NCBI GenBank assembly: GCA_022925895.1
Contig: JAKSYS010000203.1
Coordinates: 25,798-89,797, forward strand
Length of the DNA: 64,000 bases
Source of the DNA: Fragilaria crotonensis
Lineage: Eukaryota; Bacillariophyta; Fragilariophyceae; Fragilariales; Fragilariaceae
Direction: 5' to 3'
Made by a program: the position numbers and the translations under genes. Shown here in pieces: positions 11,554-25,540 of the stretch; the first letter of the stretch is position 1; each line of letters opens with the position of its first letter. Below the pieces are notes generated by a model, which was given only the letters and a program-made list of their open reading frames with translations, was not told the origin of the DNA and searched no databases.

Positions 11554-12602
11554 GGCAGCGACGTGGATCTTTGGACTTGCGTATGCCGATGCTAACAAAA
11601 TGCTGGTGTGCGCCTTGACGTCCCACACATTGCAACCGATGCGAGTTCTATAGCGTAAAAGTAGTAGAACTATAGGAATCATCGTCCTCCATTGAAGGCT
11701 TGAGGCTCCTGGGATCATAGTGGAACACAACGCGAACACAATGTCTACGTACAAGGTACGAGTACTGCGTATTGCACTGTGTACGTCACCAAGAATCATA
11801 CATACAACCCATACATGATACTGTGGCAAACTACATGTAGTGACTGTGACAGTGGCAAGACGTTTCGGTTGAGGGTTGGGTTTACAGTTTACAGTTTGTC
11901 CAAGCTCCCGTCTGTCTTTCATCCATACAAATTCAGAACTACAGTATTGGTTATATATTATATACTACTAGTTATCCTACTATATTATAAATTAATTGTG
12001 TGCGTGTGTGCGTGCGTGCGTCCGTCTGTTACGGAGTATGACCACTCTGGGGTACTGGATCAAATGAATACTGTCTCATACTCGGAGTATGATATATGTC
12101 ATACATGCATACTGGAGTACTCCGTAAGCGATGTCGGTAAGATTTGCATATACGTAGTTGCGTCAGTGCGTGCGTCTGTTACGGAGTATGACCACTCTGG
12201 GGTACTGCACTACTTGCGTATAGTACTGAACTGTACAAACAGTACACACAACCGTGCACAACCCATACCGTACACGTATTCCAAAAGTCCGACCAATTGG
12301 GAGGTACCCACTAGTATACTATATATTGATTATTGATAGGTACAGTACAAATGTGCTACAGTACATGCAACTCGTGTCCAATGAACTAGACCAGTACAAG
12401 TACCAGGTACTTGTACCGGTGTAGGTTGACAAGGAAGTCCCACGCGCCATCAATCTCCACATCTCCACCATCGCAGGCAGGGAATGGGTGTGTGCTGGGG
12501 TGCGCTGGGGACTGGTTGATTTGCAGCTGTCAATTGTTCGCCATTAAGCAAGGGTATCATTCGCACCACGTTGATATCAGAAAGCAAAAAGCGCTGCTCG
12601 CA
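11554..12602. other. Intergenic spacer containing a 324-bp dispersed repeat
   Basis: No gene is supported. The centre is the repeat at 11973..12296, listed separately. The rest has the GTAC/TACTCC-rich spacer composition. The open frame of the aspartokinase extends to 12411, but without an ATG before 12603. Confidence 0.6.
11973..12296 (+). repeat. 324-bp dispersed repeat, copy 1
   Basis: From TATCCTAC to GACCAA this 324-bp unit appears identical by eye to the reverse complement of 41194..41517, 29 kb away. It contains a GTGCGTGC-rich stretch and two copies of a TTACGGAGTATGACCACTCT block. It has no coding motif; open frames through it at both sites are identical only because the DNA is. Confidence 0.9.
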
Positions 12603-15440
12603 ATGGATCTGGATTTTACAGAATCGAACAATGTTGGCTTTGATGGGAAGCAATGGGAAGTTCACAAGTTTGGAGGAACATCTGTGCAAAATGCGCAGTG
12701 TTATCTGAGTGCCGCTGCCATCGTGGAAGAACAAATCGGCATTACCAATAAGAATCCAATGCCCACAAGCACCTTAAACTTGGCGATAGTCGTGTCGGCC
12801 ATGGGTGGCAAACCCAAGACGACTGATCTGCTCCTCTCCACGGTCGAAGCGGCTGCGGTTCGCGATTCTGACCAAGTAGATGCCGCGATCGCGACGATTA
12901 CCGCCAAGCACGTGACATGCCTGGAACAACTTTTTTCGGACGAGACGACTCAGGCTCGCCTAAAGCAGCTCATTCTTAAGGATCTGGAGGACATTCGAGA
13001 CATTCTCAAGACTGTGGCACTTATGAAGTGGCAAGCATCTCGCATTTCGGAGTTGGTGTCCGGCTATGGCGAGGTTTGGAGTGCTCAGATCTTGGCTGCC
13101 CTTCTGCAACTTCGATCGGATGAGCGTGGTACAGAAGGCCAACCCTACTTCGCTTACCTCGATGCCAGACGAGTTATAACTATTGACGAGGAAGCGATCA
13201 AAGACGGAGCAGTTTGTTGGGATATCAGTGCAGCGAAGCTAAAGGAAGTATATGAGACCGAGACGTTTCCAGCAGGGAGAACTTTGAATTTTGTTATTAC
13301 AGGCTATGTTGCCTCCAACACCCATGGAGTTGCAACCACACTTCAACGCGATGGATCTGATTACAGTGCTTCAATTATGGGAAAGCTTTTGCAATCTCGT
13401 AATGTTACAATCTGGACCGATGTTGACGGCGTCCTCTCAGCCGACCCTCGCCGTGTGCCCAACGCTTTTGTAATTCCAGAAGTTTCCTATAATGAAGCCA
13501 TGGAATTGGCGTACTTCGGCGCTAAAGTCATTCACCCCAAAACAATGCAACCAGCCATCACAGCGAACCCGCCGATCCCCATCTACATTCGTAACACCTT
13601 CAACCCGTCTTTTCGAGGAACTCGTATCTACACATCCAGCACGACACACACCGACCGCGATCGCAGTGTATGCGGATTTAGTAGCATTGAGAACATGGCA
13701 TTGATCAATGTGGAAGGTTCAGGTCTGGTGGGCGTGCCAGGTGTTGCCAAAAGACTCTTTGGCACACTTGAGACTGTTGGAGTGAACGTTGTGCTTATTT
13801 CGCAAGCCTCCTCTGAGCATAGCATCACCTTCGCAACTGTCGAAAGTCAAGTACTCGTAGCCAAGGAAGCCATTGAAGAGGAATTTCACAAGGAGTTGAA
13901 GCAAGGCAGAATCTCACAAATTGAAGTGCAGGCGCCGTGCGCTATCATTGCAGCGGTTGGAGATGGCATGAAATTAGTCGCCGGAGTGTCCGGTCGTTTC
14001 TTTTCTGCCCTCGGAGACGCAAAGATCAACATCCTCGCCATTTCGCAGGGCTGTTCGGAACGAAACATTAGTGCCGTCGTCTTCACTCGAGAATCCACTC
14101 GTGCGCTCCGTGCTGTCCATGCTGCGTTTCGCCTTTCTCACACGACGGTTCGTGTCGGTGTTATCGGCATGGACGACGTGGGAGATTCTCTCTTGAAGCT
14201 TTTGCAGACACAGCGCGCCAAGTTGCGAGAGAAGTTCGAGGTCGACTTGCAGGTTTGTGCTGTCCTTGCAGATGGGTTCAGCTCAGATTTGGTGTGCTTG
14301 AAGCAAGACGAAGCTGGGTGCGCTGATTCCATCACCTCAGCAGCTTACACCTTGGTGACTGGTGAATTAGCAACGGGATCCAAGGTTGCTTTTCACAATG
14401 ATGCAGAATTCGCAAAGCGGGTGTCGGGAGGAATAAGTGCCGTCAAGGACGTTTTGATTCTGGAAGACTGCGCTCACCATGTCATTTTCGACTGCACGGG
14501 TGACAAGGAAGTCGCTTCAAAGCATGCTGAATGGTTGACGGCAGGTGTTAATGTTGCGACAGCGAACAACTGGGGCCTCGCCGGTCCGAAAGAACAGCGC
14601 GATGCCATCACTGCAGCTGAAACAGCCAACGGTAAGCTCTCCGCCAAGTATTTGCGGGAAGTCACAGTTGGAGGAGCCCTTCCAGTCATAAACACCGTGA
14701 GGAGTCTTCTGAACTCAGGCGATAGGATTCGCAGAATCGACGGAATCATCTCGGTGTCCATGTCATACATTCTGTTCCGCATCTCTCCACCACCCCAAGC
14801 CGACCGAAACAGTCAATTCGATGAACACATCAGCAACGGGGCCTTCACGGAAGAATCAGCTTATAACTCGGGCGAGGCATGCTCCTTTTCTCAAGCAATT
14901 AAAGAAGCTGTGGCCTTAGGCCTCATGGAAGACGATCCTGCGAAGGATCTTAATAACGAATACAGCGCCAGGTGCTTGATGATTTTGGCCAAAGAGCTTG
15001 GACTTGATCACAACACTTCCACCGAAGCCATTCAAGCTGCTTGTGAAAAGTTGGTCGAAGGGCCCGTCGACTATACCAACATTTCAGAGGAAGTGGACAA
15101 ATTGGTACAGGAGAAGGTTAATGCAGCGCACGAAAAGGGCTGCGTGCTACGTCAGATTGCAAGCGTGGACGTCGCTCAAGAGCTGATCGAAATCAAATTG
15201 ATGGAAGCTCCCAACAATCACATTTTCGCAGTCACTCCACCTAGCTGCGAGTGCGTGCGCTTCTTTACACAGAGGCATCTACGATATCCTTTGATCATCC
15301 AAGGACCGTCCGCTGGGGCAGATTCCACTGCTAGTGCTCTGCTCGCTGAGTTCTTGAGTCACATGCGCAGCAAGGTGGGTGTGCGCACAGGAGCCCTCTC
15401 CAGGCCCAACTCTGTCAGCCAACTTAAGACTCTAATCTAA
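12603..15440 (+). CDS. thrA: Bifunctional aspartokinase-homoserine dehydrogenase
   Basis: A single exon of 945 residues starting at the first in-frame ATG. The aspartokinase part begins with KFGGTSV (residues 22-28) and continues with the SDYSA and DVDGVLSADPR motifs that bind substrate and ATP. Tandem ACT-like regulatory segments follow (LINVEGSGLVGVPGVA, and a second near GRFFSALGDAKINI). The homoserine dehydrogenase part starts near residue 516 with the dinucleotide-binding VGVIGMDDVG and contains the catalytic VGGALPVINTVRSLL and DDPAKDL regions. The enzyme catalyses the first and third steps from aspartate to threonine and methionine. Length and order match plant and bacterial ThrA. I see no transit peptide from this ATG, so plastid import would need an upstream exon. 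Its stop overlaps the next gene's stop by 9 bases. Confidence 0.95.
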   Translation: MDLDFTESNNVGFDGKQWEVHKFGGTSVQNAQCYLSAAAIVEEQIGITNKNPMPTSTLNLAIVVSAMGGKPKTTDLLLSTVEAAAVRDSDQVDAAIATITAKHVTCLEQLFSDETTQARLKQLILKDLEDIRDILKTVALMKWQASRISELVSGYGEVWSAQILAALLQLRSDERGTEGQPYFAYLDARRVITIDEEAIKDGAVCWDISAAKLKEVYETETFPAGRTLNFVITGYVASNTHGVATTLQRDGSDYSASIMGKLLQSRNVTIWTDVDGVLSADPRRVPNAFVIPEVSYNEAMELAYFGAKVIHPKTMQPAITANPPIPIYIRNTFNPSFRGTRIYTSSTTHTDRDRSVCGFSSIENMALINVEGSGLVGVPGVAKRLFGTLETVGVNVVLISQASSEHSITFATVESQVLVAKEAIEEEFHKELKQGRISQIEVQAPCAIIAAVGDGMKLVAGVSGRFFSALGDAKINILAISQGCSERNISAVVFTRESTRALRAVHAAFRLSHTTVRVGVIGMDDVGDSLLKLLQTQRAKLREKFEVDLQVCAVLADGFSSDLVCLKQDEAGCADSITSAAYTLVTGELATGSKVAFHNDAEFAKRVSGGISAVKDVLILEDCAHHVIFDCTGDKEVASKHAEWLTAGVNVATANNWGLAGPKEQRDAITAAETANGKLSAKYLREVTVGGALPVINTVRSLLNSGDRIRRIDGIISVSMSYILFRISPPPQADRNSQFDEHISNGAFTEESAYNSGEACSFSQAIKEAVALGLMEDDPAKDLNNEYSARCLMILAKELGLDHNTSTEAIQAACEKLVEGPVDYTNISEEVDKLVQEKVNAAHEKGCVLRQIASVDVAQELIEIKLMEAPNNHIFAVTPPSCECVRFFTQRHLRYPLIIQGPSAGADSTASALLAEFLSHMRSKVGVRTGALSRPNSVSQLKTLI

Positions 15441-23827: not shown

Positions 23828-24351
23828 TTGTGTGGGTTCTCAACACTTTGTGTGCTCCACAACCTCTTCGTTCATATCACAGTGCAGAAATCTGGAGGGC
23901 TCCGGAGTTCGCATCTTCTCTTGTTGATGAATTGACACAACGAGACAACTGACGCCAACATCATGTGACTGCGACAATCCGAAGTACTGTACGGTAAGTA
24001 CGAGTACCTGGTTCGTGCGCACGGTAGACGGTACCAGTACTCCAGTACTGGGCAAAAAACAAAACCCTCCAGTGTCCAGTGTATATGTAGGACTTGACGT
24101 TTTTCTTACCCGTAGCGGTATGTTTGTATGCAGGTATTCTGCATATTCGGTTACTCCTTCTACTACGAGTACTAGACCTAGTAGCAAGTGGCAACGGTAG
24201 CCAAACGGCCGAACAAGCCACGCCTGAGCACGAGCAGTATATAATTGTGTGTAACAACTGATGCCAGTATCGGAGGTTGATCATTGTATGAAATCTTAAA
24301 AGTTATATTTATATATCAAACTTTCCGCCTGCCAAATAACAACCCATAATA
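23828..24351. other. Intergenic spacer upstream of the permuted tRNA
   Basis: No gene supported. GTAC-type words occupy 23985-24060. The 50 bases before the tRNA 3' half are AT-rich (TTATATTTATATATC at 24303-24317), which could act as an upstream element for RNA polymerase III. Confidence 0.5.
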
Positions 24352-24433
24352 TTCGAATGGTCACGTGTTCGACTCACGTTTGGTGCTAAGATAGCTTGCA
24401 CTAATAGCTCAGTGGTAGAGCGTTCGATTGCAG
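24352..24433 (+). tRNA. trnC-GCA: Circularly permuted tRNA-Cys(GCA) gene
   Basis: The 3' half (24352-24387) lies upstream of the 5' half (24398-24433), separated by 10 bases. Joined 5'-to-3' half they give a complete cloverleaf. Acceptor stem 24398-24404 pairs with 24380-24386 (six Watson-Crick pairs and one G-T). The D-arm is GCTC/GAGC, the anticodon stem TTCGA/TCGAA, the anticodon GCA is at 24430-24432, and the T-stem is ACGTG/CACGT with loop TTCGACT. The discriminator is T at 24387, as cysteine tRNAs require. T8, A14, GG, T33, TTC and A58 are all in place. Leader 24342-24351 and trailer 24434-24438 can form a relaxed bulge-helix-bulge with cleavage after position 37 and before 38. A T5 run at 24444-24448 is a polymerase III terminator. 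Confidence 0.9.
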
Positions 24434-24443
24434 AGGATGTTTC

Positions 24444-24448
24444 TTTTT
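24444..24448 (+). terminator. T5 polymerase III terminator of the permuted tRNA
   Basis: Five T residues 10 bases after the end of the 5' half. A short transcript covering leader, 3' half, linker and 5' half would end here. The same TTTCTTTTTC context recurs in the decayed downstream repeats. Confidence 0.55.
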
Positions 24449-24689
24449 CGCTTTTGCAGTTTGCATGTGTGAAATTGGCCGTGAGATAGTTTGCACTAAT
24501 AGCTCAGTGGTAGAGCGTTCGATTCAAGACGGTGTCTCTTCTTCTCCACTTTCACAGGTGTGAAGTTGGTGGTATAGGGTTCGATTGTAGAGGATATTTC
24601 TTTTTCACTCTTAAGAGCATTCGAGTGCAGAGGATGTTTCTTTTTCACTTTTGCAGGTGTGAAGTTGGCGGTGAGGTAGCCTGCACTAA

Positions 24690-25416
24690 GAGCATGTCTT
24701 ATCATGGGGTACAAAAATTCCATGGATGTACCTGGGGGTAGATCGATGTACCCTTCCAAAAACTTCACAAAATATGCAATTCTTATCGTGTGGTCTTGTA
24801 CACGATTTATTTTCCATATCCATACATTAATATATCCTATGTCGCTATGTCTTGTCTTGCGTGTACATATTGTAATCTACATACTGAATATTTTATATGC
24901 GTGTAATGACAATTCGAGTGATCCTTGTTGTTGTTGACGAAAGCCACGAAGGCAATGACGTCTGGAATGACGACACGGACTCGATGGCTGAGTTCGTGGC
25001 GAGCGTAGAAATGCTGGGAAGGCCTCTTCCTTGTGCGGGAGTTCGGGGCAAGTGTCGAAACAATGCAATGGCAGCATCTTGGCAAGTTGTTGGTGGAGTT
25101 GTTGCTGTTGGAGGCGCTGCCATGAGCCATTGTTGAGCAATTCTCACATGTTTTATCGTGTATGACAACACAAGGAACAGGTACGGAAATGTGGTGAAAC
25201 GTGACAAAAGGTCACTGCACATCACCACTGGAGTCTTGCAACAGTAGTGTACCTAGGTAGATGAGGGGGGGTCAGATTTTCAAAATCTGACCCAGGTACG
25301 TCAGGGGGGTACATCATCTGACCCCCCCCAATTCGATGTACCCCCCTTCATAAGAATTGCTTTTTTCGACGAAAATCGAAAATTCGGCGGGATGTACCCG
25401 ATGATAAGACATGCTC
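24690..25416. mobile_element. Harbinger-like MITE with TAA target duplication
   Basis: The terminal inverted repeat begins GAGCATGTCTTATCAT and matches for 24 bases with one mismatch. TAA flanks both sides (24687-24689 and 25417-25419), and removing the element rejoins a tRNA-Cys 5'-half repeat. The 727-bp interior has the palindromic core GGTCAGATTTTCAAAATCTGACC (two parts of at most 12 bases each side) near 25268-25290 and GCAATTCTTA motifs near both ends, shared with the element at 30516. No intact transposase; a 97-aa minus frame has no motif. Confidence 0.85.
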
Positions 25417-25540
25417 TAATAGCTTAGTGGTAGAGCGTTCGATTGCAGAGGGTGCTTATTCTCCACTTTTACAGGTGTGAAGTTGGTGGTGAGTTAGCTT
25501 GCACTTAAAGCTCAGTGTAGAGCGTTCGATTGCAGTCAGT

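Follow-up and report, generated by a model that had tools for sequence, protein, structure and literature searches.

A review of permuted tRNA genes, in the part of it available to us, counted 34 of them as of 2014, in C. merolae, four prasinophytes, the B. natans nucleomorph and Thermofilum, and placed such genes just in red and green algae, a green-derived nucleomorph and archaea, with intervening sequences of 1-74 bp (PMC3978253). In 2025, nuclear permuted tRNA genes were also described in the green alga Auxenochlorella, where, according to the accessible text, an ordinary tRNA finder had overlooked them, as it does at the locus presented here (PMC12636532). In this work, we describe a locus of the diatom Fragilaria crotonensis that is a real permuted tRNA gene and adds a new branch of eukaryotes to a known kind of gene. 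We consider it very probable that the locus is a functional nuclear tRNA-Cys(GCA) gene in circularly permuted form, and probably the sole cytosolic tRNA-Cys gene of this organism.

The locus occupies positions 24352-24433 on the plus strand of the window (the whole stretch of DNA analysed, 64,000 nucleotides), and all the features given below lie on the same strand. In accordance with the order read in an earlier note on this DNA, the tRNA-Cys 3' half (24352-24387, 36 nt, positions 38-73 with U73), delimited by a permuted-model match and ARAGORN, precedes the 5' half (24398-24433, 36 nt, positions 1-37 with the anticodon GCA), and a linker of 10 nt (24388-24397) leads from the tRNA 3' end to the 5' end. 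ARAGORN identified the rejoined halves as tRNA-Cys(gca), whether the junction was taken as 37/38 or 38/39. All 21 stem pairs are present (acceptor 7/7, including one G-U, D 4/4, anticodon 5/5 and T 5/5, the T stem by eye), and the 12 pairs that join the separated halves are all intact. The rejoined molecule carries U8, G18G19, R15:Y48, U33, U54U55C56 and U73 (partly by eye), so that the full cloverleaf with conserved bases, the GCA anticodon and the U73 announced in the earlier note were all recovered. Its variable loop ends in GGTC, an ending that we take to be shared by human, Arabidopsis and yeast tRNA-Cys. When the window was scanned as it stands, ARAGORN reported 0 tRNAs and Rfam at gathering scores likewise none, which is what is expected if the gene is permuted. 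An ordinary or intron-containing tRNA gene was discarded because the sole close copy of the 3' half found in the genome sits upstream of all the 5'-half copies found, and a split, trans-spliced gene because the halves are only 10 nt apart and the linker contains no T4 run.

To score the locus, we used a covariance model of 13 of the 28 ordinary nuclear tRNAs examined in the same genome, permuted at 37/38 with a linker of ten N and with the target excluded. Against the 64-kb window, this model matched 24352-24433 over its full length with 73.5 bits (E 1.9e-22), which rules out a chance origin. The next matches (22.4, 20.4 and 11.1 bits) all contain extra 5' halves, and the fifth (7.9 bits, E 3.6) is noise. 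Among 26 chosen loci, the model also gave 62.5 bits to an element of Paenibacillus and 58.5 and 58.6 bits to the join of two adjacent ordinary tRNA-Trp genes. The permuted model is therefore not specific for tRNA genes, and function must be argued from other evidence. The tRNA-Trp(cca) genes in question form a pair 73 bases apart on each of two haplotype-like contigs (L033 and L034, on C256 and C560); tandem pairs of this kind are a proposed source of permuted tRNA genes.

The surroundings of the two halves contain candidate signals for transcription by RNA polymerase III. Upstream of the 3' half lies a TATA-like AT-rich stretch (24303-24317). The AT-rich region spans -60 to -36 here, whereas the AT peak averaged over the 28 ordinary tRNA genes falls at -35 to -21, a comparison of one gene with a mean; the more distant position may make space for the leader required by the splice structure. 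With box sequences judged against what we take to be the consensus, a B-box GTTCGACTC (24367-24375) stands upstream of an A-box TAGCTCAGTGG (24405-24415). A T5 run (24444-24448) starts 11 nt past the 5' half and is a likely RNA polymerase III terminator: the first run of at least four T was found at +4 to +16 in all 28 ordinary nuclear tRNA genes examined, which are not all independent since some are one gene on two haplotype-like contigs, and such a run occurs within 16 bases at 7.3% of places picked at random in the window. The signals, with T5 past the 5' half and none in the linker, fit a single permuted transcript.

The earlier note had also proposed that leader and trailer form a relaxed bulge-helix-bulge. 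The pairs are present as it described: the leader part CCCATAATA (24343-24351) could occupy three of four helix positions and form two G-C pairs with the trailer (24434-24443), whose first three bases, AGG, would contribute to the second bulge and to the G-C pairs. The positions are U32-A, U33-A, G34-U and the mismatch C35xA, followed by the two G-C pairs. Yet the structure falls short of a perfect bulge-helix-bulge, an equally good one arises in 3.5% of random flank pairs, and as an argument for a permuted gene it speaks weakly. The predicted folding energy of the precursor is ordinary (z -0.57), and its minimum-energy fold shows just three of the D-stem pairs. A cut exactly at 37/38, as previously stated, is compatible with the sequence, but the exact base is not fixed by it: an A at 24434 directly follows the 5' half, so that with the junction at 38/39 the loop would again read TTGCAGA.

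Downstream of the gene, the 5' half recurs in several altered forms. Copy B (24493-24528), recognized by sequence comparison, lacks a 3' half of its own and has two changed anticodon bases, and it retains its 16 testable pairs. Remnants of more 5'-half sequence form copy C (24580-24630). Copy D (24683-25448) has two changes and is divided into a left piece (24683-24689) and a right piece (25417-25448) by a MITE-like DNA element (24690-25416) with 16-bp terminal inverted repeats and a TAA duplication. In copy E (25501-25535), U8 is changed and one D-loop G is lost. Relatives of the MITE-like element occur on other contigs, with 97% identity over most of the length on contig C372, and the 9-kb surroundings of the locus match the assembly at full length in a single place. 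The copies, none of which has its own 3' half, share the end of the linker and the trailer, from which we infer that a unit of linker, 5' half and trailer was copied after the gene was already permuted. Such altered 5'-half copies next to the gene would be a record of how a permuted locus grows.

These copies also allow the gene to be compared with its own duplicates. The 5' half of the gene has no private change relative to the copies. At positions where B and D have the same base, it departs from them at 0 of 32 sites, compared with 8 of 38 for the trailer (p 0.006). With B and E, or with D and E, the counts are 0 of 31 and 4 of 25 in each case (p 0.034), and they shrink to 0 of 29 versus 3 of 23, given without a p value, when all three copies have to agree. 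The comparisons overlap in their data, rely on a single MAFFT alignment from which columns with gaps were removed, and cover the branch between the gene and the common ancestor of the copies rather than the gene alone. On these counts, the 5' half appears to have been under constraint while the trailer diverged, which we count in favour of a working gene.

If the gene works, whether the cell relies on it turns on the presence of an ordinary tRNA-Cys gene in the nucleus. The assembly searched comprises 62.1 Mb in 881 contigs. Matches of the rejoined tRNA used as a DNA query were confined to the contig of the locus; this query missed a tRNA-Ala(tgc) gene (L036) with about 22 bases in common and so finds close copies only. 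A pattern of D arm and anticodon with up to two mismatches gave 137 matches in the assembly, 100 of them listed, against 154 for the backward control. Those with at most one mismatch are four: two members of the array, a plastid tRNA-Gly (L054) and a locus on contig C750 (L053), in which neither tRNA search found a tRNA. A second pattern, from anticodon to T loop with one mismatch, gave 40 matches, listed in full, against 44 for the control. The nuclear tRNA-Trp pair was among them on its two contigs, so this pattern is able to find tRNAs. ARAGORN and a tRNA-Cys model, run on 30 of the 137 and 30 of the 40 loci, revealed 0 ordinary nuclear tRNA-Cys genes; the first-pattern matches outside the 30 scanned (70 listed and 37 more) all have two mismatches, and 10 of the second pattern lie outside the scan.

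Two further patterns were run. A longer one gave 5224 matches against 4689 for the control, and among the matches listed the 15 exact ones have no pairing anticodon stem (by eye). The other gave 46, all of them listed, against 9. Two of these belong to the array. Another 20 were scanned within segments of 111-121 bases, a length that would not accommodate a long intron, and none scored, although a tRNA-Phe control did; the remaining 24 were judged solely by their letters, and several are repeats of scanned ones. An Rfam tRNA search of the assembly scored 63 of 2258 candidates and recovered nuclear genes for ten amino acids, a sample that is uninformative on the absence of an isotype. The single ordinary tRNA-Cys(gca) gene that we saw (C880, 459-530) lies on a contig that is mitochondrial by its genes (partly by eye). 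On the same contig, six tRNA-Lys(ttt) genes with equal scores follow one another at about 69.5-75.7 kb, at intervals of about 1.0-1.4 kb. According to the earlier note, ordinary tRNA-Cys genes elsewhere would speak against its reading; none was found for the nucleus in these non-exhaustive searches of the 62-Mb assembly. Dependence of the cell on the permuted gene for its tRNA-Cys is likely.

The genome has candidates for part of the machinery that such a gene would need. Two genes encode proteins with the catalytic domain of the splicing endonuclease (PF01974; 56.7 and 29.6 bits, cut-off 27), and both proteins have, by eye, Tyr, His and Lys at what we take to be the active-site positions. Among ligases, a search of the genome with the RtcB profile gave no match, with control matches in 9 of 14 genomes, and the PF09511 profile gave none either, though its control was silent too. 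Trl1-type ligases are stated for diatoms in the accessible part of a review (PMC4090602). Maturation could then proceed as follows. RNA polymerase III would produce one transcript of leader, 3' half, linker, 5' half and trailer that stops at T5, and the halves would fold into a structure whose acceptor stem is closed by the linker and whose anticodon stem lies at the transcript ends. By analogy with Cyanidioschyzon, tRNA-splicing endonuclease, recognizing the relaxed bulge-helix-bulge of leader CCCATAATA and trailer AGG, would remove leader and trailer at the anticodon loop, at about 37/38; a ligase would close this loop and thereby circularise the tRNA-Cys precursor; RNase P and RNase Z would then excise the linker, and CCA would be added.

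The same parts could also be processed in another order. If linker removal by RNase P and RNase Z came first and splicing of the halves second, the tRNA would be made without a circle; the linker sits exactly between the tRNA 3' and 5' ends, and the sequence is compatible with either order. For Cyanidioschyzon, however, a circular RNA intermediate was reportedly published by Soma in 2007, and we regard the linear route as highly improbable. The locus could, moreover, be a dead relic, with its two halves left over from the inner parts of two tRNA-Cys genes once arranged in tandem, and with the working gene elsewhere or absent from the assembly. The neighbouring ordinary tRNA-Trp genes, when joined, reach their 58.5 and 58.6 bits with the same permuted model, and the 5'-half copies that adjoin the locus are altered. 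Such a relic would nevertheless have kept 12 of 12 inter-half pairs, a 5' half without private change next to a trailer that differs, and a terminator in place, and the non-exhaustive searches of the 62-Mb assembly found no ordinary nuclear tRNA-Cys gene. We consider a relic unlikely.

Another reading takes the locus for a Y-RNA-like small RNA of the YrlA kind rather than for a tRNA gene. YrlA is a bacterial Y-RNA-like RNA that, like our locus, is tRNA-like with the T arm ahead of the D arm, and Rfam matches it to 24333-24450 with 33.2 bits (E 6.9e-5), more than it gives to the Paenibacillus element (30.0 bits), which stands about 300 bases from a Ro60-like ORF. Both scores, however, are below the family cut-off of 69, and the TROVE profile (PF05731, Ro60) has 0 matches in the diatom genome, with control matches in 1 of 14 genomes, that of Deinobacterium. 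The locus has the features of tRNA-Cys, namely U33 followed by GCA as anticodon, U73 and a variable loop with GGTC, and its T5 run resembles those of ordinary tRNA genes. Since the Paenibacillus element obtains 62.5 bits with the permuted model as well as its YrlA score, neither score separates permuted tRNA genes from Y RNAs; the Y RNA was rejected on the cysteine anticodon, U73 and the fact that no Ro60 was found, and its probability is in our view very small indeed. The Paenibacillus piri element itself (L113, 3288-3362, minus strand) is YrlA-like with a permuted-tRNA-like fold, its Ro60-like ORF was recognized by eye, and ARAGORN found no tRNA in it. Scans for the same order of parts gave none in virus contigs and, in prokaryote genomes, this element only.

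The permuted tRNA-Cys gene is carried by a genome whose protein neighbours bear out the previous description of it as diatom-like. About 9 kb from the locus lies a diatom-type aspartokinase/homoserine dehydrogenase gene (12411-15440), whose nearest named relative among the 120 of 7977 proteins listed is a distant one, Nitzschia inconspicua with 62% identity; the ten organism-labelled relatives among these 120 are presumably all diatoms. Mitochondrial L14 is likewise distant, with 69% identity to Psammoneis japonica, and the two best chains in the protein-neighbour comparison are, we assume, diatom photosystems. Contamination by a green alga was rejected in view of this diatom-type gene on the contig and of the relatives of the MITE-like element on other contigs, which also argue against contamination. 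The end of the contig (window 52000-64000) contains a Copia-like retrotransposon, with a Pol beta-barrel domain and a zinc knuckle, and a strong GC skew.

With a permuted tRNA-Cys gene as the preferred reading, the balance tips slightly towards a diatom nucleus that relies wholly on tRNA circularisation for all cytosolic cysteine codons. If this is true, the same design in prasinophytes would point either to transfer of a permuted tRNA gene between green algae and diatoms or to tRNA-Cys being driven repeatedly to the permuted form. The locus also suggests that an essential tRNA gene of a diatom can escape ordinary tRNA finders. In the literature searched (titles and abstract openings, with few subscription papers), we found no permuted tRNA gene from a diatom or other stramenopile, and within these bounds this would be the first in a stramenopile.

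Compared with the known systems, the locus follows established designs in most respects. Another published permuted set, in the part of the source available, has the 3' half first, a TATA-like sequence upstream, a T stretch after the 5' half and a linker free of signals, a pattern found here with a linker of 10 nt; unlike our single locus, that set comprises 11 genes with junctions at several positions, none of them for Cys, and their expression and aminoacylation were shown (PMC3978253). The prasinophytes, which the earlier note had rightly named as carriers of permuted tRNA genes, come closer still: the accessible text reports permuted Cys(GCA) genes in O. lucimarinus, O. tauri and M. pusilla, with a 37/38 junction and without an extra intron, as read for the diatom gene; their linkers measure 26, 38 and 12 bp, that of the diatom 10 (PMC3978253). 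In Ostreococcus lucimarinus, the same source places an additional 5' half downstream of the permuted Cys(GCA) gene, as at our locus (PMC3978253). The novelty of the diatom gene is lowered by two points that the earlier note did not mention, the shared Cys(GCA) isotype and junction and the extra 5' half. The occurrence of permuted tRNA-Cys in both groups raises the question of descent or transfer versus convergence. Unlike the prasinophyte genes, with which it was compared by description, the gene reported here belongs to a stramenopile and is accompanied by several copies of its 5' half, one of them split by a MITE-like element.
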